Part shown: piece after piece, positions 2,769-11,469 of the stretch
Numbering within the stretch: position 1 is the stretch's first letter
How the letters are laid out: each line of letters starts with the position of its first letter
Notes under the pieces: generated by a model
Told to the model about the DNA's origin: nothing
Seen by the model: only the letters and a program-made list of their open reading frames with translations
Databases searched by the model: none
Program-made: the position numbers and the translations under genes
Assembly: GCF_002286935.1 (NCBI RefSeq)
Contig: NZ_MVOH01000017.1
Span: forward strand, 124,001 to 188,000
Direction of reading: 5' to 3'
Length of the DNA stretch: 64,000 nt
From: Bifidobacterium criceti
GTDB lineage: Bacteria; Actinomycetota; Actinomycetes; Actinomycetales; Bifidobacteriaceae

Positions 2769-4070
2769 TTACGCCTCGGCGAGTTGGGTCGTGCCCGGGG
2801 CCGCCAGCTCGGGGCGCGAACGGCGTAGCTTCGAGAACGCGAGCCCAAGGCAGATGAACGCCACGCCGAAGAGCAGCACAATCGCGTTGTTGGCGAGCCA
2901 CAGCCCCGCATCGATATGGCCATCCATGCCGTTGACCGCGTCGATCGACTGGCAGAACCACCAGCCGGGCAGCAGTTTGCCGATGATGATCATCACATGC
3001 GGCATCATGTCGATCGGGAAGGCCATGCCTGAGGTGAACATGACGAGCAGGCCGAACACGTTCGCGATTGCGTTGACGGCGACGGAGTTCGCCGACAGCA
3101 TGCTGATCATGAAGCCGCTCGCCACGCCGACGAGCGCGTAGAGCACGAGCGAGGCGCCGGAGTAGAGGAGCGTCGGCATGGGTATGCCGTTGATCGGCAG
3201 TCCGGCGAGCGCGGGCAGCGCCATGGATATGCCCCAATACAGCAGGCTGACGATTGCGCCGAAGAGTGCGCATGCGGCGAATTCCTGCATGACCATGGCA
3301 CCGGTGTGCTGTGGCGAGGCATACAGCCTGCGGCGCACATTCACCGCGGAGAACGCGTTCATCGCGAGCGCCGTGCACACGAGCATCGCCGCGAGCAGCG
3401 GATAGACACCCATTTTGACGGTCATCACATAGGCGGTGCGCGCCGACTCCTGCTTGTCGCTCGCGGCGCCTGGATCGTCGGCCACGCTGATCTGTGGGTA
3501 GGCGCTCGCGTCGTCGGCGAGCGTGTCGATGACAGCGTCAGCCGCCGTGTTGAGCGCCGTGGGCGTCACAACCGCCCCTGTCTGCGTCTGCTGCGAGAGT
3601 GCTTCGATGCGCGTCAGGCGCAGGAAGTCGTCCACCTGGAGTTTCGCGAGCGAGCCGTAGGCGCCGGTGAAGCTGACGACCACGTCGAGTTTCGGCTCGT
3701 CGCCGTTGGTCGCGAGCGCATCGGCGAGGCGCTGCGTGTAGCCATCGGGGACGATCACGATCAGGTCCGCGTAGTTCGAGGCGGCGGCCGTCTGCAGGTC
3801 CTCGCCCGTCGTGCCGACGTCGACGAGATTGCAGTCTTTCGCGAGGAACTCGCGCATCGCACCGACCAGTTCGCCGCCGTGCGGGTCGCGGTTGACGACG
3901 GCCACGTCCGCTTTGGCGGATTCGTAGTGGACCGAGCTGTCGGATGCGGAGAGGTCGGTGATCAGTGTCCAACTCAGGCCGAACATCATCAGGCACAACC
4001 ACACCACATAGATGAGGATCATGAGTTTCTGGGCCAGCAGGACCTTCAGCGTCGTCTTAAAGGTGTGCAT
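2769..4070 (-). CDS. ABC-2 type transporter permease (second permease of the cluster)
   Basis: A 433-residue membrane protein: one N-terminal transmembrane helix (LMILIYVVWLCLMMFGLSW), a long extracytoplasmic domain to about residue 215, then five or so helices, as in ABC-2 (DrrB/YhgE/LnrM-N-like) permeases. Its start overlaps the end of the upstream permease gene by 14 bases, so the two are translated together. With the ATPase at 5356-6363 it should form one exporter with two different membrane subunits. The divergent two-component system makes an envelope-stress or antibiotic-efflux role likely, as for the Bacillus LnrLMN exporter. The substrate cannot be read from sequence. Confidence 0.82.
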   Translation of the reverse strand: MHTFKTTLKVLLAQKLMILIYVVWLCLMMFGLSWTLITDLSASDSSVHYESAKADVAVVNRDPHGGELVGAMREFLAKDCNLVDVGTTGEDLQTAAASNYADLIVIVPDGYTQRLADALATNGDEPKLDVVVSFTGAYGSLAKLQVDDFLRLTRIEALSQQTQTGAVVTPTALNTAADAVIDTLADDASAYPQISVADDPGAASDKQESARTAYVMTVKMGVYPLLAAMLVCTALAMNAFSAVNVRRRLYASPQHTGAMVMQEFAACALFGAIVSLLYWGISMALPALAGLPINGIPMPTLLYSGASLVLYALVGVASGFMISMLSANSVAVNAIANVFGLLVMFTSGMAFPIDMMPHVMIIIGKLLPGWWFCQSIDAVNGMDGHIDAGLWLANNAIVLLFGVAFICLGLAFSKLRRSRPELAAPGTTQLAEA

Positions 4071-5325
4071 AGCGTTGCCTCCTGAGGAACACGGTCGCCA
4101 ATGCGAGGGCGAGTACGGCCATCGTCAGCAGGATGCCGACGGTGCGGAAGAATGGGGCATATGAGTCGTAGTAGAGGATGTCGTAGAACAGGTTCGTCAC
4201 CTGCTGCGTGGGGTTGATCGTCGCGACAATCGGCGCGTTGCGCTGGATCCAGTCGCTCAGCGCCATCGCGCCGGAGCCGTACAGACCGCTCAGGAGCGAG
4301 AGTGCGCATGAGAGGGCGGTCGTCAGGCCGATTTTCGTGCCGGCGGACAGCCTTGGCAATGAGCCGAGCAGTGTGCCGAGTGCGTTCGCCGCAAACGAGG
4401 CGACGACGATCGCGAGCATGGTGGCCGCCCAACGGCCGCCGAACGATATGCGGCACACGAAGTGGATGTACAGCAGCGCCACGAGCAGCGAGCAGAACGT
4501 GCACAGCCAGCTGGCGAGAAACCCGCCCATGAGCTGGCGGAACCTCGAGAGCGGCGCGAGCGAACGGCGCATGCCGAGCGCGGAGAGGTTCGCCTGCGTC
4601 GAGCACACGGTCGTCACGGCGAACGTCATCGCCATCAGGGCGGTCATCGCGAGGAGCGCATAGTAGTACCGTGCGGATTCGTCCGGTTTGAAGTTCGTCA
4701 GACGCACCTGACGCGTGAAGTCCGGCGTCTCCTGCATGGCAGCCGCGAATCCGGCGTCGCGCAGCACGGCGGGGTCGGTGTCCGCGATCTGCGCCACGGT
4801 GAGCGCCTGCCGGTTGAACATGCCGATCGCGCCGTCGAGGATGCTCAACGAGATTGGCAGTCCGGGGGTGCTCATCGTGTCGTTCACGCTCGAGACGGTC
4901 GCGCGGCTGATCGTCATATGCAGCAGGCCGTCGCCGTCCACCGTCAGGAACCCACGCACATCGGTGTCGGTGTTGATCAGGTCGGTCGCCTCGGTGGCGC
5001 TGTCCACCGCCGTCACATCGAGTAGGTCGCGCAGGTCGGTGCCGCCCGAATCCACGTTCATCGCGGCGGGTGCCGTGCCGCATGCCTGCAGGGCGACCGG
5101 CGTGCGCTGCATCGCGGCGACTAGTTGCTGCGCGCCTTCGGACTTGCAGTAGTCGCCATTCGCCACCACGGCGAACCGCATCGTCGTGATCTCATAGGTC
5201 GCGCCGAGGTTGCCGAACATGCCCAGGAACATCGTCGAGAGCAGGATCGGAAAGCAGAACAGCCAGAACAGTGACGATTTTTCGCGCAGATTGATGCGCA
5301 ATGTGGTCAGGAACGTGCTCCACAT
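4057..5325 (-). CDS. ABC-2 type transporter permease (first permease of the cluster)
   Basis: A 422-residue paralogue of the following gene with the same plan: an N-terminal helix (SSLFWLFCFPILLSTMFLGM), a large outer domain, and a block of C-terminal helices. The start ATG at 5325 has AAGGAGAG about 7 bases upstream. It starts 30 bases after the ATPase stop and overlaps the next permease. The outer domain carries an Asp/Thr-rich patch near the stretch DLINTDTDVRGFL. Likely forms a heterodimeric channel with the second permease. Function is inferred from family and operon. Confidence 0.82.
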   Translation of the reverse strand: MWSTFLTTLRINLREKSSLFWLFCFPILLSTMFLGMFGNLGATYEITTMRFAVVANGDYCKSEGAQQLVAAMQRTPVALQACGTAPAAMNVDSGGTDLRDLLDVTAVDSATEATDLINTDTDVRGFLTVDGDGLLHMTISRATVSSVNDTMSTPGLPISLSILDGAIGMFNRQALTVAQIADTDPAVLRDAGFAAAMQETPDFTRQVRLTNFKPDESARYYYALLAMTALMAMTFAVTTVCSTQANLSALGMRRSLAPLSRFRQLMGGFLASWLCTFCSLLVALLYIHFVCRISFGGRWAATMLAIVVASFAANALGTLLGSLPRLSAGTKIGLTTALSCALSLLSGLYGSGAMALSDWIQRNAPIVATINPTQQVTNLFYDILYYDSYAPFFRTVGILLTMAVLALALATVFLRRQRYAHL

Positions 5326-5355
5326 CGTGGTCTCTCCTTTCGTATGCGCATGCGG

Positions 5356-6363
5356 TCAGTCGCGCAGGTCGGTGCCAGTCAGGGCAAGGAACACGTCGTT
5401 GAGCGTCGGCGTATGCGAGCTCACGTGGCCGACAGGCACATCCGCCTGCCGCAACGCCTGCAGCACGTCGATCAGATTGTGCGCGCCCTGTGCGCACGAG
5501 ATCGTGAGCGTGTCCTGCTCGAACGCCACGTCGTGCACCGCGGGCAGGGCGCGCAGGGCGGCGATGGTGCGTTCGCGCGCGTTCGCGTCCGCCGCGAGCG
5601 TCGGCGCTTCGATGCTGATGCGCTCACCCACGTCGATCATGCGCTTGAGTTCGTCGGCGGTGCCGAGGGCGATCTGCCGGCCGTGGTCGATGATCTGGAT
5701 GCGGTCGCAGATCTGCTCGACCTCTTCCATGTAGTGGCTCGTGTACACGATGGTGGAGCCCTGCGCGTTGAGCTGCTCGATGCCTTCGAGGATCGCGTTG
5801 CGGCTCTGCGGGTCGACGGCCACGGTCGGCTCGTCGAAGAAGATGAGCTCCGGCTTGTGCACGATGCCGCACGCGATGTTCAGTCGGCGCAGCAGGCCGC
5901 CGGAGAGTTTGCGCGGGCGGTATGTGCGGTAGTCGTTGAGCCCCACGAACGCGATCGCCTCGTCGACGAGCCCCTTGCGGCGCGCGCGGCCCGCCACGTA
6001 CAGCGAGCAGAAGTACGAGATGTTCTCCTCGACCGTCAGCTCGTTGAACACGGCTATGTCCTGCGGGATGATGCCGATGCGGCGTTTGAGGTCATAGCTC
6101 GTCGGGCCCATCGGCTTGCCGAAGATGCGGATCTCGCCCGAATCATAGGTGAGCAAGCCGAGGATGCAGTTGATCGCGGTCGTCTTGCCCGAGCCGTTCG
6201 GTCCGAGCAGGCCGTAGATCTCACCTCGGCGCACCTCCATGCTCAGGTAGTCGAGGGCCAGGTTGTCTCCATAATGCTTGACCAGTTCGGTCACCCGGAT
6301 GGCCGGGGTGGGCTGCGCAATGCGTTGTGCGGCGCTCGCCGGGGTCGGTGCTGTAGTGTTCAT
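5356..6363 (-). CDS. ABC transporter ATPase, drug-efflux type
   Basis: Energises the two permeases encoded downstream. Walker A is GPNGSGKTT, the signature is LSGGLLRRLNIACGI, and Walker B is LIFFDEPT, followed by the His switch in VYTSHYMEEV; the C-terminal tail is typical of DrrA/LnrL ATPases. I chose the ATG at 6363 (protein begins MNTTAPTPASA), giving 335 residues. An ATG at 6372 and a TTG at 6438 are in frame but extend back into the control region. No strong Shine-Dalgarno is visible, so the start is uncertain. First gene of a three-gene operon divergent from the sensor kinase. Confidence 0.85.
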   Translation of the reverse strand: MNTTAPTPASAAQRIAQPTPAIRVTELVKHYGDNLALDYLSMEVRRGEIYGLLGPNGSGKTTAINCILGLLTYDSGEIRIFGKPMGPTSYDLKRRIGIIPQDIAVFNELTVEENISYFCSLYVAGRARRKGLVDEAIAFVGLNDYRTYRPRKLSGGLLRRLNIACGIVHKPELIFFDEPTVAVDPQSRNAILEGIEQLNAQGSTIVYTSHYMEEVEQICDRIQIIDHGRQIALGTADELKRMIDVGERISIEAPTLAADANARERTIAALRALPAVHDVAFEQDTLTISCAQGAHNLIDVLQALRQADVPVGHVSSHTPTLNDVFLALTGTDLRD

Positions 6364-6521
6364 GCCAACCATTGTTCCAAGCGGGCGTGCGCCGACACCG
6401 TGCCTGCCATCACCAATTTCGTGAAACAGTGGTGACAAATGTCACGATACGCATTGCGGCAGGCACGGTGTGCCCGATAATGGAACCGGTACCACGCACA
6501 CGGCACGGAAAGGAGCGCAGC
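6364..6521. promoter_or_regulatory. Divergent control region with nested inverted repeats
   Basis: This spacer separates the ABC operon from the two-component genes. Two perfect 14-base inverted arms, ACACCGTGCCTGCC at 6395-6408 and its complement at 6458-6471, enclose an inner symmetric site GTGACAAATGTCAC at 6432-6445. The arrangement looks like operator DNA, with the neighbouring NarL-type regulator as the obvious candidate binder. A run of AAAGGAG at 6508-6514 serves the kinase gene. Binding is inferred only from symmetry and position. Confidence 0.5.
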
Positions 6522-7727
6522 ATGGCGGACATCGCAGTCCATGTGCTCATGGCCGTCATCTGCACGCTGCTCGCCCTGCTGGCCGGCTCCGACATCACCG
6601 TGGCCACCGTGGTGGGCCTGCTCGTGGCGGTCTGCCTGGCGGCGCTCGCCGCGCTCGTCGAGACGAAGGCATGGCTCGCCTTGAGCATGGCATTCTGCGT
6701 GGCGGCGGTCGCCATTCCCACATGGGCCATGTTCCTGCCGCTCGTGGCGTGCGATCTGGCCTATCAACTCGTGTTCTGCGCCACGCCACGCACACGCCAT
6801 GCCAAATATGCACTCACGGCGGCACCATGTACGGCGGCTTGCGTGGTGACGGGCATGGCGCTGATGCGCATCGGCGGCGTGTGGCCGCACGACGCGCGTG
6901 CGCTCGCCTGCATGCTGTTGGTGCCGCTCACCGTGCTGACCGCCGTGGCGGGTTGGCTGCGTGCCGATGGCCTGCGCTCGCAGATGCGCTACCGTGCGCT
7001 CGCCGATGCACGGCGTGAACGGCTGCGCCTGTCGCATGCGCGCATCGCCGATGTCGAGGCGCAGCGCACCGCCGACATGCGGCAGGCCCGGCTCAACGAA
7101 CGCACGCGCATCGCCCGTGAGATCCACGACAACGTGGGCCACGTCCTCACACGCGCGATCATGATGACGCAGGCCGACCACGTGGTGGCCATAACGGTGG
7201 GCGACGCCGAGCACGCCGCGCAGTTCGGCCAGATCGGCGCCACGCTCGACGAGGCGATGACGCTGATCCGCGCGTCGGTGCACGACCTGAAAGACGAGGG
7301 CACCGATTTCCACAGCATGGTCGAAGACGCCGCAATGGTCGACGAGGGTGTTCCGCTGACGGTGCATCTGGCCGACGGCATCGGGTACGCCCCGGCCGCG
7401 GTCGCGCGCTGTTTCGCTGCGGTCATCCGCGAGGCGCTCACCAATGCGGTGCGGCATGGCACGGCGAACGAGGCCACGGTGAAGCTCATCGACCTGCCGG
7501 GCCTGTGGCAGCTCATCGTGCAGGACAACGGCGGCAAGCCCGCGCGCACGGCAGGTGCTTGGCAGGCGGGCATCGGACTTGCCGACATCGAGGAGCGCGC
7601 GCGTGCGCTCGGCGGCAACGCGACGTGCGGGCCATACGGCACCGGATGGCGTGTGTTCGTCTCGGTGCCGAAACCTGCGGACGGTCGGGACGGGCGCGCG
7701 GACGGCAGCGGGAGGAAGGTGGCGTGA
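6522..7727 (+). CDS. Sensor histidine kinase, NarL/DesK (HisKA_3) type
   Basis: A membrane sensor of 401 residues. About five hydrophobic helices fill the first 150 residues (VLMAVICTLLALLAG onward) with almost no outer domain, as in intramembrane-sensing kinases. A linker leads to the dimerisation/phosphoacceptor helix NERTRIAREIHDNVGHVL, where His is the phosphorylation site, then an HATPase_c domain with the N-box REALTNAVRHG and G-box GIGLADIEERARALGG. The ATG at 6522 follows AAAGGAG at 7 bases; an upstream in-frame extension has no ribosome site. It lies just before a NarL-type regulator and faces the ABC exporter it probably controls. Confidence 0.87.
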   Translation: MADIAVHVLMAVICTLLALLAGSDITVATVVGLLVAVCLAALAALVETKAWLALSMAFCVAAVAIPTWAMFLPLVACDLAYQLVFCATPRTRHAKYALTAAPCTAACVVTGMALMRIGGVWPHDARALACMLLVPLTVLTAVAGWLRADGLRSQMRYRALADARRERLRLSHARIADVEAQRTADMRQARLNERTRIAREIHDNVGHVLTRAIMMTQADHVVAITVGDAEHAAQFGQIGATLDEAMTLIRASVHDLKDEGTDFHSMVEDAAMVDEGVPLTVHLADGIGYAPAAVARCFAAVIREALTNAVRHGTANEATVKLIDLPGLWQLIVQDNGGKPARTAGAWQAGIGLADIEERARALGGNATCGPYGTGWRVFVSVPKPADGRDGRADGSGRKVA

Positions 7728-7791
7728 TGATCGCGTATGCATATGACGAAGGAAACCAAACATGGAGCACGCGGATGACGGGAGGAACACA

Positions 7792-8442
7792 ATGATTTCG
7801 GTTGCGATAGTCGATGACGATCCAATCGTCTGCTCGTCAATCGGGACGATCCTGACGGCGACGCACACGGCGGCGGTGCTGTGGACGGCGCACGACGGCG
7901 CGACGGCCATCCGTGAATACGGGCGGCACGTGCCCGACGTGTTGCTCATCGACGTGCAGATGCCGGACATGGACGGCCTCGACGCGTCCGCGCGGATCCT
8001 TGACGCGCATCCGGACGCGAGGATCCTCATCCTGACGACGTTCGCCGATGCCGACTACATCCGGCGCGCCGTGCAGCTGCATACGAAGGGGTACCTCATC
8101 AAACAGGACGTCTCGTCGGTCATCCCGGCCGTGCAGGCCGTCATGGCGGGGCAGGTCGTGCTCGGTGCGGAAGTGCTCGGGCAGCTCGCCATGCCCGCGA
8201 GCGCGGCGGATGACGGTACCACGGATGGTGTGCCGCTCGCCGAGGACGAACGCTTCGCGCGGCTCACCGAACGTGAACGCGACGTCGCCATGCTCGTCGC
8301 GGAAGGCTGCGACAACCGGCAGATCGCGGCGCAGCTGCATCTGAGCGAAGGCACGGTGCGCAACCGGATAAGCGACATCCTCGCGAAGACGAACATCCCC
8401 AACCGCACGAAACTCGCCGTCGAATGGCTCAGCTGCCACTGA
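7792..8442 (+). CDS. NarL/FixJ family response regulator
   Basis: A 216-residue DNA-binding regulator. The receiver domain begins MISVAIVDDDP, with acidic residues 8-10 and phosphoacceptor Asp54 in LLIDVQMPDMDG; the C-terminal LuxR helix-turn-helix reads LTERERDVAMLVAEGCDNRQ then IAAQLHLSEGTVRNRISDIL. The ATG at 7792 has GGAGG at 7781-7785, so it is preferred over an ATG 30 bases upstream. The kinase gene ends 64 bases before. It is expected to act on the divergent ABC promoter region. Confidence 0.9.
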   Translation: MISVAIVDDDPIVCSSIGTILTATHTAAVLWTAHDGATAIREYGRHVPDVLLIDVQMPDMDGLDASARILDAHPDARILILTTFADADYIRRAVQLHTKGYLIKQDVSSVIPAVQAVMAGQVVLGAEVLGQLAMPASAADDGTTDGVPLAEDERFARLTERERDVAMLVAEGCDNRQIAAQLHLSEGTVRNRISDILAKTNIPNRTKLAVEWLSCH

Positions 8443-8750
8443 CGGCGTTGGTGGCAGCGGCAGGTCTGCTGCAGTCGGCTGTGTATGTCGGCACCGCCGC
8501 ACGGTGCAGCCATGTGTGCGCAGCAAATAGTTGTGCGCTGCGTCGCCGCCGCACTCCACGTCCATCTGTGTGCTGCATACGGCTGTCGGTTGCGGCACCG
8601 CCGCACGGTGCGTCCGCGCGTTATCTGACGAAGTCGTCTACAGCAACAATGGAGACACTGTCCATATCGGTGTTGCAAATGTTGTCATACTGAAAAATTT
8701 GCAGAAACTACGATTTCTGTTTTCAATACTGCATAGGTTATCATTTCGAT
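8443..8750. promoter_or_regulatory. Repeat-bearing spacer and A/T-rich promoter of the kinase/nucleotidyltransferase pair
   Basis: A 308-base gap with two different parts. The first 200 bases are GC-rich and carry two copies of CGGCACCGCCGCACGGTGC (around 8489-8507 and 8593-8611), each able to fold into a 6-bp hairpin. The last 110 bases are abruptly A/T-rich and hold two inverted repeats: TGCAAAT at 8674-8680 with ATTTGCA at 8697-8703, and CAGAAA/TTTCTG at 8702-8719. A -10-like TATCAT at 8739-8744 ends 6 bases before the next ATG. No convincing gene was seen inside. Confidence 0.55.
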
Positions 8751-9389
8751 ATGGATACCACGAACGATACGCGGACACAGGCGGACGCCGTGCACACGAT
8801 GAGCGTCAACGGCACGTCGTATGACGTCGTCCGTCTGCTCGGCAAAGGCAAAGGCGGCTATTCGTACCTCGTGCGGGATGCGGACGGCGCCCATTATGTG
8901 CTCAAGCAGATCCACCACGAACCCTGTGCCTACTACCAATTCGGCGACAAGCTCGCATCCGAGCTCAACGATTACCGTACGCTCAAGTCGATCGGCGTCA
9001 ATGTGCCCGAGATGGTCGACGTGGACGAGGACGCCGAACGCATCCTCAAGCAGTACATCGAAGGTCCCACGATCTACGACCTCGTCGCCGCCGGCGCCGT
9101 GCGGCCATGGCATGTCGAGTGGATGCGCGCGACGTGCCGCATGCTGTACGCGGCGCATACGAACATCGACTATTTCCCGACGAATTTCGTCGTGCACGAT
9201 GACGACATCTTCTATATCGACTACGAGTGCAACGCGTACATGGAGGAGTGGGATTTCGAGCACTGGGGCATCAAGTATTGGAACCGCACGCCGGAGTACC
9301 TCGCGTACGTCGCCGAACACACGAACGACGATGGCGGCGACGGCGATACCACACACCATGGGACCGATGACATCAAGGAGACAACATGA
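8751..9389 (+). CDS. Small protein-kinase-fold protein (YrzF-like), atypical catalytic loop
   Basis: A 212-residue single-domain protein kinase-like protein. Visible parts are a glycine loop LLGKGKGGYSYLV near residue 24, the ATP-binding Lys in YVLKQIHHEP, a catalytic-loop equivalent IDYFPTNFVV (replacing HRDxxxxN with D-x-x-P-x-N) and a metal-site equivalent IFYIDYE replacing DFG. This pattern occurs in small Firmicutes kinases such as YrzF and in lipopolysaccharide/RIO-like kinases. The C-terminus is an Asp/Thr/His-rich tail. No Shine-Dalgarno precedes the ATG, but TATCAT lies 6 bases before it, so the mRNA may be leaderless. It overlaps the next gene by 4 bases. The substrate is unknown; small-molecule phosphorylation is equally possible. 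Confidence 0.7.
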   Translation: MDTTNDTRTQADAVHTMSVNGTSYDVVRLLGKGKGGYSYLVRDADGAHYVLKQIHHEPCAYYQFGDKLASELNDYRTLKSIGVNVPEMVDVDEDAERILKQYIEGPTIYDLVAAGAVRPWHVEWMRATCRMLYAAHTNIDYFPTNFVVHDDDIFYIDYECNAYMEEWDFEHWGIKYWNRTPEYLAYVAEHTNDDGGDGDTTHHGTDDIKETT

Positions 9390-10222
9390 ACGTCCGAGGG
9401 GAGAAGAAAGAGACGATGGAACCGTTCGAGGCATTGTGGCGCGCGTTCGCACAGCTGCCCGAAGTGACGGCGGTCGCGCTCGGCGGATCGCGCGCGGGCG
9501 GCGCATACGACGAGACGAGCGACTACGACCTGTACATCTACTGCGACGCGCTGCCGAGCGAAACGAAACGCGCCGCGATCATCGGCGAACACTGCCGGTA
9601 CGCCGAGATAGGCAACGCGTTCTGGGAACTTGAGGATGACTGCACGCTCAACGACGGCGTCGACATCGACATCCTCTACCGCAGCCTCAACGATTTCGCG
9701 CGCGGCATCGCGGCCGTCGTCGACGAGGGAGAGGCGTCGGACGGCTACACGACGTGCATGTGGCACAACCTGCTCGGCTGCCGCATCCTCTTCGACCGCG
9801 ACGGGCGCCTCGAAGCGCTGCGCGCACGGTACGACGTCGGATATCCGGATGCGCTGCGCGCGAACATCATCGATACGAACATGCGGCTGCTGAGCGGACA
9901 GCTGCCGTCATACGACCATCAGATCGCGAAGGCGGCCGCACGTGGCGACCTTGTGAGCGTCAACCACCGCGCGGCCGCGTACCTCGCATCGTATTTCGAC
10001 GCGTTGTTCGCGCTCAATCGGCTCACGCATCCGGGGGAGAAGCGCATGGCACGCTACGCGCGCGACCATGCCACGCTGCTGCCCGCGCATTTCGACGAGG
10101 ACCTCGACGCGCTGTTCGCGTCGATGTTCACCGACGTCGACGCGACGGGACGCACGCTCGCACGGATGACCGGCGAACTCAAGCGCCTCGTCGATATGAC
10201 GGCGTGCGGTGCGCCGCGGTGA
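9386..10222 (+). CDS. Nucleotidyltransferase with DUF4037-like C-terminal domain
   Basis: A 278-residue protein of the polymerase-beta superfamily. The active-site motif reads LGGSRAGGAYDETSDYDLYI, with the paired Asp residues that bind metal, and a third acidic position lies in GVDIDILY. The helical C-terminal half (from about residue 125, TCMWHNLLGCRILFD) resembles DUF4037, often found after such domains. The ATG at 9386 overlaps the kinase stop (ATGA) and follows AAGGAG, so both genes are co-translated. Families of this kind adenylylate proteins, antibiotics or tRNA. Pairing with a kinase fold recalls aminoglycoside-modifying enzymes, but neither protein shows a clear aminoglycoside signature. 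Function unknown. Confidence 0.72.
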   Translation: MNVRGEKKETMEPFEALWRAFAQLPEVTAVALGGSRAGGAYDETSDYDLYIYCDALPSETKRAAIIGEHCRYAEIGNAFWELEDDCTLNDGVDIDILYRSLNDFARGIAAVVDEGEASDGYTTCMWHNLLGCRILFDRDGRLEALRARYDVGYPDALRANIIDTNMRLLSGQLPSYDHQIAKAAARGDLVSVNHRAAAYLASYFDALFALNRLTHPGEKRMARYARDHATLLPAHFDEDLDALFASMFTDVDATGRTLARMTGELKRLVDMTACGAPR

Positions 10223-10635
10223 TCGTTGCCGACGGTCGCATCGTGCGTCGGCGCCGCACAGTGCGTCCATTGGCGACCTGTGCGTGGCAGTCGGTGGCGG
10301 CGCTGCCACCTAGTACGTCCATCCGTACGCCGCGGACGGCTGTGCGGTGCGCCGCCGCCGCGGTGTACAACCGTTGGTGTCGGGGACGCAGCCGCCGCCG
10401 CTCCATTCGTCGTCGCGGCGGCGTGCCGCTATGCCGTACTGACGCGTCATGCCGCCGTGTAGCGCGTATGCTTGCGGCATAAACGCGCGGAATACCACGG
10501 CTTTGCCGGCTGTTGTGGAGATAGTGCGAATCTTCGGCCGCCGCATGGCGTGTTCCCAGCGTATTTCCAGACGGGAGACGGTGGCGACGGTAGAATGGAG
10601 CCAATCGAAGGCAAGGCAACCTACAAGGAGAACGA
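10223..10635. other. 413-base GC-rich spacer with diverged repeats; promoter of the next gene
   Basis: No convincing gene is present. The sequence 10315-10343 matches 8558-8586, on the other side of the two-gene island, at 23 of 29 positions in the same orientation. A variant of the 8489/8593 hairpin unit occurs near 10249-10268. The final part holds a -10-like TAGAAT at 10600-10605 and AAGGAG at 10625-10630 for the Bax-inhibitor gene. Confidence 0.5.
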
Positions 10636-11469
10636 ATGACATACGGTCAGCAGCCGGGCGGCCGCCGCCCGAACGGCCAGGAGCCATACGGCATGGCGCC
10701 GCAGTATGGCATGTATGGCGCCCCGCAGAACGGCGCGGGGACGATGTACAACGGCGCGGGCGGCGCGTACAATGTGCAGCCGACCTATGTGACCGAACGC
10801 GCGGAGCATGTCTCGATGACGCGCGCGTACGGCGAGATGACGATCGCGCTCGTCCTCACCGGCCTCGTGGCGATCGTCACGCAGATGACACACCTCTATG
10901 AGCGCTTTATCGAGGCGACGGGCATGCTCGGCGTGTGGCTGCCGATGATCGTCGAGGTCGGCATCGCGATCTACCTCGGCATGCGTGTCATGAACATGAA
11001 ATCGTCGACGGCACGTGTGTGGTTCTACGTGTACGCGGCGCTCATGGGCTTCTCGTTGAGCGTCATCTTCAGCGCGTACAGCATCACGACGATCGGCTAC
11101 GCGTTCCTCATCAGCGCCGTGTTCTACCTCGCGCTCACGATGTTCGGCCTGACGACGAAGGCGAACATGCTCAAAGCGGGCCCGGTCCTCGTCATCGGCC
11201 TCATCGTGCTCATCGTCACGCAGGTCGTGCTCATGTTCGTCGCCCCGTCGAACACGATGCTCAAGGTCGTCGCCGCGATAGGCATCGTGTTGTTCGCCGG
11301 CATGACGATCTACGACGCGCAGTTCACGAAGCGCGTCTTCGCGCAGTACGCGTCGCAGGGCCCCGAGATGATCAAGCGTGTCTCGATCCTGTGCGCGCTC
11401 AACCTCTACCTCGATTTCGTCAACATGTTCCTCTACATCCTGCAGCTGTTGGGATTGAGCAGGGACTGA
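10636..11469 (+). CDS. Bax inhibitor-1/YccA family membrane protein
   Basis: A 277-residue protein. The first 55 residues are rich in Gly, Asn, Gln, Pro and Tyr and likely disordered. Seven transmembrane helices follow, ending in the family hallmark of a short helix with charged residues (MTIYDAQF, then NLYLDFVNMFLYILQLLG). Bacterial members of this family (YetJ/YbhL-like) act as pH-sensitive calcium leak channels or modulate membrane proteases; the role here is unknown. The start has a good ribosome site (AAGGAG, 5 bases). Transcribed alone, with a large hairpin after the stop. Confidence 0.85.
   Translation: MTYGQQPGGRRPNGQEPYGMAPQYGMYGAPQNGAGTMYNGAGGAYNVQPTYVTERAEHVSMTRAYGEMTIALVLTGLVAIVTQMTHLYERFIEATGMLGVWLPMIVEVGIAIYLGMRVMNMKSSTARVWFYVYAALMGFSLSVIFSAYSITTIGYAFLISAVFYLALTMFGLTTKANMLKAGPVLVIGLIVLIVTQVVLMFVAPSNTMLKVVAAIGIVLFAGMTIYDAQFTKRVFAQYASQGPEMIKRVSILCALNLYLDFVNMFLYILQLLGLSRD

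Follow-up and report, generated by a model that had tools for sequence, protein, structure and literature searches.

The genome of Bifidobacterium criceti carries a small kinase-like gene that runs directly into a gene for a nucleotidyltransferase (NTase). This locus raises the question of whether the two enzymes form a functional unit, where they came from and what they would modify. We analysed it in a window of 64,000 nucleotides (contig NZ_MVOH01000017.1, positions 124,001 to 188,000 of the forward strand), and positions below are those of the window unless another locus is named. The region was found to be a conserved, acquired two-enzyme operon with translational coupling. Our best explanation, to which we give a probability of about one in three, is that the pair are optional enzymes covalently modifying a compound of the gut by phosphorylation and nucleotidylation.

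Organisation of the gene pair

The kinase gene (8751..9389, + strand) encodes a minimal protein-kinase-like protein of 212 aa, recognised from alignments, an AlphaFold model and a fold search. The NTase gene (9386..10222, + strand) encodes a protein of 278 aa with an NTP_transf_2 domain and a C-terminal DUF4037 helical domain, identified by Pfam and by its conserved catalytic residues. The two open reading frames share four bases, ATGA (9386-9389), as the first-pass annotation had reported with correct coordinates, and an AAGGAG Shine-Dalgarno site lies five bases 5' of the NTase ATG. This coupling segment (9375..9389, + strand), with both the overlap and AAGGAG, is kept in the two sister Bifidobacterium species (G055 and G068), so that the two-gene enzyme unit claimed earlier was borne out as two enzyme-fold proteins with conserved translational coupling.

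At the protein level, the kinase is about 73% identical to its counterparts in the two sister species, and the NTase 82-84%. Purifying selection acts on both genes, with a pN/pS of 0.43-0.54 in the kinase and of 0.24-0.40 in the NTase. Because the reading frames, ATGA and AAGGAG are conserved in the sisters and pN/pS is 0.24-0.54, the pair and its overlap are more than a product of chance.

The 90 bases 5' of the kinase have a GC content of 34% compared with 65% across the window. In the three-species DNA alignment of this AT-rich putative promoter region (8667..8750, + strand; GC 34%), the blocks TTGCAAATGTTGTCAT.CTG and TGTTTTCAA..CTGCATAGGTTATCAT are identical in all three species. A sigma-70 consensus scan of the region 5' of the kinase found no site. 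The conservation of the AT-rich blocks suggests a promoter or an operator.

The kinase family

The kinase had been described as lacking HRD and DFG, and the letters IDYFPTNFVV and YIDYE are indeed as given, but the catalytic residues D140, N145 and D157 are kept within these altered motifs. The motif N-I-D140-YFPT-N145 aligns to HRDxxxxN, with the catalytic Asp140 and Asn145 retained, and D157-Y-E aligns to DFG, with the Mg-binding Asp157 retained. Lys52 and Glu71 are also retained in alignments of 40 and 49 relatives. Since all five residues are present, the protein is not obviously dead, and it is probably active though atypical in its letters.

The AlphaFold model built with 40 relatives (pLDDT 85.4, pTM 0.80) matches the kinase folds YabT, RIO1, PRPK and MPS1 (Foldseek E 1e-7 to kinases; VIA-align), with a Z of about 13 to RIO1, PRPK and MPS1. 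Taken together, K52, E71, D140, N145, D157 and the modelled bilobal fold place the protein in the protein kinase superfamily. Two motifs characterise the family in alignments of the relatives: the invariant HHEPC-x-YY-x-FG, which directly follows the VAIK-type ATP-binding Lys strand and forms a lower-confidence loop of the model, and W-x-FE-x-WG-xx-YW, which is strongly invariant.

No Pfam, NCBIfam or PADLOC family was reached at its cut-off by the kinase. The canonical eukaryotic-type protein kinase family PF00069 scored 13.5 bits against a cut-off of 31.7, with NID and DYE replacing HRD and DFG, and the APH phosphotransferases (PF01636) scored 14.9 bits against 23.2, with Asn in place of the motif His. 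The RIO and Bud32 families also stayed under cut-off (PF01163, 11.6 against 22; TIGR03724, 28.9 against 125). The best profile matches, all weak, were to Bud32, RIO1, APH and Pkinase/PknB-type kinases, that to Bud32 having E values of 7e-7 in NCBIfam and 1.5e-6 in the PDB. With Bud32/PRPK and RIO kinases, which give its best profile matches, the protein shares a minimal fold of ~180-200 aa with little C-lobe after the DFG equivalent. It differs from them in falling below every family cut-off and in its own motifs HHEPC-x-YY-x-FG, NIDYFPTN and IDYECN, and no Kae1 or other KEOPS partner was found in the kinase neighbourhoods. Sequence and model thus point to an unnamed minimal protein-kinase-like family with a RIO/Bud32-like fold, and our literature search found no paper on it.

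Proteins are the substrates of RIO/Bud32 kinases and of GlnE- or MntA-type enzymes. It is conceivable that the pair is regulatory, the kinase phosphorylating and the NTase nucleotidylating one cellular protein or each other. This reading is doubtful in itself but nearly as likely as compound modification, because the kinase is more like RIO/Bud32 than like APH, with Bud32, RIO1 and PknB as the closest profiles and the fold matches to RIO1, PRPK and MPS1 pointing the same way. Moreover, the two invariant motifs suggest one specific substrate across phyla, and the sole NCBIfam match of the NTase is a protein-AMPylating family (MntA), far under cut-off. A conserved protein substrate would, however, be expected to bring a conserved neighbourhood, and none was found; the kinase is also very patchy, being present in about 9% of the genomes of one Clostridia family.

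Distribution and fusions of the kinase

At least 556 relatives of the kinase were confirmed in one genome scan, and 80 of them were taken for loci and taxonomy. These 80 belong mainly to Lachnospiraceae, Oscillospiraceae and other Clostridia, with a minority in Treponema, Mollicutes, Ruminobacter and Bifidobacterium. The kinase occurs in 26 of 298 genomes of the Clostridia family mentioned above; for an order centred on Oscillibacter the count is 13 of 394. Its distribution is patchy and mostly in the gut. On mobile elements, it was seen in three unverified faecal phage records, one viral contig and one Treponema plasmid; the plasmid homologues of the NTase are distant only, and both genes are absent from most phage and plasmid records.

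The neighbourhoods of the gathered loci held no conserved neighbours of the kinase or of the NTase. Among 70 close same-strand neighbours of the kinase, the commonest types were MATE efflux proteins and GNAT acetyltransferases (four each). Single open reading frames that join the kinase to GNAT domains of several unrelated Pfam types were found in Clostridia, as raw cases and not as a rate: PF12746 (L090), Acetyltransf_10 (L108) and Acetyltransf_3 (L109) stand before the kinase and Acetyltransf_1 (L107) after it, while L223, of which L224 is a related form, has GNATs on both sides. A fusion of the kinase to Maf (L065-L067) is one occurrence of its type, against the repeated GNAT fusions. The repeated GNAT fusions and their differing Pfam types suggest that the kinase is combined with transfer enzymes for small molecules or peptides.

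AAC(6')-APH(2'') is a bifunctional enzyme, and some kinase relatives are likewise single proteins joined to GNAT acetyltransferases. Unlike AAC(6')-APH(2''), the kinase is not an APH by the Pfam cut-off, and the GNAT types vary.

The nucleotidyltransferase

The claim of a nucleotidyltransferase-DUF4037 protein was confirmed, as PF01909 (NTP_transf_2; 26.2 bits against 21) and PF13228 (DUF4037; 26.5 bits against 22.1) were both above cut-off and the acidic residues are present. The active-site motif is GGSR..SDYD, with D46, D48 and D95 as the predicted catalytic residues; the GS...D-x-D residues (D46, D48) are invariant in 32 relatives, and the D95 position is mostly Asp or Glu. These residues and profiles show it to be a nucleotidyltransferase of the DNA-polymerase-beta type, catalytically equipped and followed by the DUF4037 helical domain. 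Its single-sequence AlphaFold model had a pLDDT of 37.

In profile comparison with solved structures, the NTase gave weak matches only, to MNT antitoxins, ANT(3'')(9) and Tue1. The solved ANT enzymes were matched at chance level (E 0.05 or worse), and the match of the DUF4037 region to Tue1 (PDB 9fpm) was weak (E 0.011). One of the 32 relatives matched the streptomycin adenylyltransferase Pfam family. The architecture is like that of aminoglycoside nucleotidyltransferases (ANT), in which a pol-beta nucleotidyltransferase carries a helical C-terminal domain, and DUF4037 has been classed with the C-terminal domain of these enzymes, which is inactive and of the HEPN type (PMC3710099). The difference from ANT lies in the lack of a significant profile match to the solved enzymes.

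The weak similarity to MntA (18.9 against a cut-off of 60 in NCBIfam), together with the small size of the coupled pair and its horizontal acquisition, raises the question of a toxin-antitoxin or phage-defence module, in which the kinase would be the toxin and the MNT-like NTase the antitoxin, as in HepT-MntA, or the reverse. The likeness to the type VII MntA-HepT system is that of an MNT-type NTase in a two-gene unit. Unlike MntA, it is a full-length NTase with DUF4037 and not a minimal MNT, and its adjacent gene encodes a kinase, with no HepT or other HEPN partner. Both genes are solitary in most genomes, unlike a true toxin-antitoxin pair, no good PADLOC family match was obtained (best E 0.002), and most phage and plasmid records lack the genes. 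We consider such a module improbable, and we rejected it as the leading reading because of the usually solitary genes and of PADLOC and NCBIfam scores far under cut-off. The earlier statement that no known resistance or toxin-antitoxin pair has this composition agreed with our comparison, as no exact known counterpart was found.

Acquisition of the gene pair

The kinases of the pair group with Clostridia, apart from the genus's own kinases (tree support 100/99), and the NTases of the pair nest inside a Clostridia cluster (95/85), while the main cluster of Bifidobacterium NTases lies apart from them (99/95). The insertion site is bordered by a LuxR-type response regulator gene on the left (7762..8442, + strand) and by a Bax1-I (BI-1-like) gene on the right (10636..11469, + strand), both assigned by Pfam, and 111 of 112 Bifidobacterium genomes have the BI-1 gene. 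The site is empty in three relatives, one of them Bifidobacterium pseudolongum, where a gap of 174 bp is all that separates the response regulator from the BI-1 gene. In another relative (G058), a DapB-like gene stands alone between the two.

The gene trees conflict with the species tree, and with the empty site this indicates a horizontally acquired cassette. Both genes entered from Clostridia. The empty sites and the DapB-like gene that G058 has in common with the sister species indicate a single insertion next to the response regulator in the common ancestor of the three sister species.

Both sister species carry the DapB/2,4-diaminopentanoate-dehydrogenase-like gene between the NTase and BI-1 genes (L036, about 5600-6641; L037:5829-6854), whereas the corresponding part of the window (10223-10635) holds repeats instead. 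Upstream, at 2769-8442, two ABC-2 permeases and a DrrA-like ATPase are divergent to a HisKA_3 kinase and the LuxR-type regulator, and this two-component gene set, which adjoins the pair, is also found in relatives without the pair. ABC exporter genes divergent to two-component genes are typical of drug-sensing exporters.

The first-pass annotation had also suggested acquisition, from the A/T-rich promoter and the repeat-bearing flanks. The acquisition itself is supported by the two trees and the empty sites, but not on those grounds, since the AT-rich stretch is the conserved putative promoter, the repeats are absent from the sisters and the GC3 of the pair is normal (0.82/0.85, against 0.83-0.92 in the neighbours). 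As the composition is fully adapted, the acquisition was not recent, and a recent acquisition judged by composition was discarded.

The repeats are degenerate units of about 52 bp, and they lie between the response regulator and the pair promoter (8464..8643, + strand) and 3' of the pair (10245..10361, + strand). They are GC-rich and intergenic, with a GGCACCGCCGCA..GTGC core, and form short arrays at several sites of the genome, including L231 and L233 (G000:C32:139009-139131). At the pair locus they were found only in the window's species and in neither sister. Because the sister species have the same insertion without them, the repeats are not a trace of the insertion, and integration scars were ruled out.

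Co-occurrence in other genomes

In about 110 kinase and 50 NTase places elsewhere, the two genes were never adjacent. This NTase is missing from all 80 kinase loci, taken with flanks of up to 8 kb; in one of them (L072) another NTP_transf_2 protein, of 110 aa, lies near the kinase. Among all gathered kinase and NTase loci, both genes were held only by the records of the three Bifidobacterium species. With adjacency confined to three sister species, the pair is neither an obligate nor a widespread two-gene system. Rare neighbourhood elsewhere was the outcome that the first-pass annotation had named as speaking against its own proposal, and this is largely what was observed.

At the level of whole genomes, the NTase was present in 18 of 76 kinase-bearing genomes, compared with 5 of 243 in a sample of the class. 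Of 298 genomes sampled from one family, 26 had the kinase, 15 the NTase and 4 both, against an expectation of 1.3 (p = 0.03), and in these four the genes were always on different contigs. In Bifidobacterium, eight of nine kinase genomes have the NTase, a count that is not independent evidence because the kinase genomes are closely related by their BI-1 proteins. As their separate co-occurrence is enriched, a loose functional link of kinase and NTase is possible; shared gut ecology may also be the cause.

These data bear on whether the pairing is a coincidence, that is, two unrelated accessory enzymes of Clostridia origin that share an operon but no target. Fixed partners are lacking for both genes, their adjacency is limited to one small clade and the neighbours elsewhere are diverse, all of which would fit. 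Against it, both genes came from Clostridia, the coupling and the promoter blocks are conserved in all three species, and the co-occurrence is enriched also within one family. We regard coincidence as a possible but somewhat unlikely explanation, close in probability to compound and to protein modification.

Possible function of the pair

Separate drug-modifying enzymes are known that add phosphate or nucleotide to drugs. Modification of a gut compound is our best guess because the NTase is built like drug-modifying enzymes and GNAT fusions of the kinase recur. It is favoured further by the patchy gut distribution, the absence of fixed neighbours, the recurrent MATE and GNAT neighbours and the NTase enrichment. 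The cassette derived from Clostridia settled between the response-regulator gene and the conserved BI-1 gene in the ancestor of the three species. In the proposed mechanism, the kinase would add a phosphate to a gut compound and the NTase a nucleotide to the same compound or compound class, and the translational coupling would keep the expression of the two optional partners, which usually act alone, in balance.

Several observations weaken this explanation. In profile comparisons the kinase lies nearer to Bud32, RIO and PknB-type protein kinases than to APH, and a size of ~180 aa leaves little space for a substrate domain of the APH kind. The chance-level matches of the NTase to ANT and the restriction of the pair to three sister species count against it as well.

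A broader proposal, which we hold to be rather unlikely, is that the kinase, minimal and highly conserved, is the core of a modular modification system of gut bacteria, in which one substrate would be given a phosphate together with either an acetyl or a nucleotidyl group. The partners, equally speculative, would be supplied by fusion or operon and would comprise several GNAT types, Maf and the DUF4037 nucleotidyltransferase. With the same low likelihood, the Bifidobacterium pair would then be the nucleotidyltransferase version.

The pair is local and the kinase family is widespread, and we consider the family itself, with its many relatives, invariant motifs, catalytic residues and repeated GNAT fusions, to be the more interesting lead. 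If its substrate is an antibiotic, dietary or host compound, the family would represent an overlooked route of modification in the gut; a protein substrate would make it a new family of regulatory kinases in bacteria. The operon of the three species, which are harmless bacteria, is a small and tractable unit.

The native kinase paralogue

The genus also has a native paralogue of the kinase, located beside trmB in seven genomes. This position resembles that of ccrZ, which encodes an APH-type kinase linked to trmB in Firmicutes; the H-x-D-x4-N (Brenner) motif, with an essential His157, is intact in CcrZ (PMC8387234). The present family has N-I-D in its place. A CcrZ-like role through the trmB linkage was rejected, as the motif differs and the window's kinase lies elsewhere, only the native paralogue being beside trmB.

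In the three pair-bearing species, the native paralogues (L008:1516-2100 in G000:C31, L033 and L034) have NIN for NID, by which the catalytic Asp is lost, and are without the HHEPC motif. These changes would fit the acquired kinase having taken over the active role from the native copy. The native copies of these species are under purifying selection, with a pN/pS of about 0.25-0.29.
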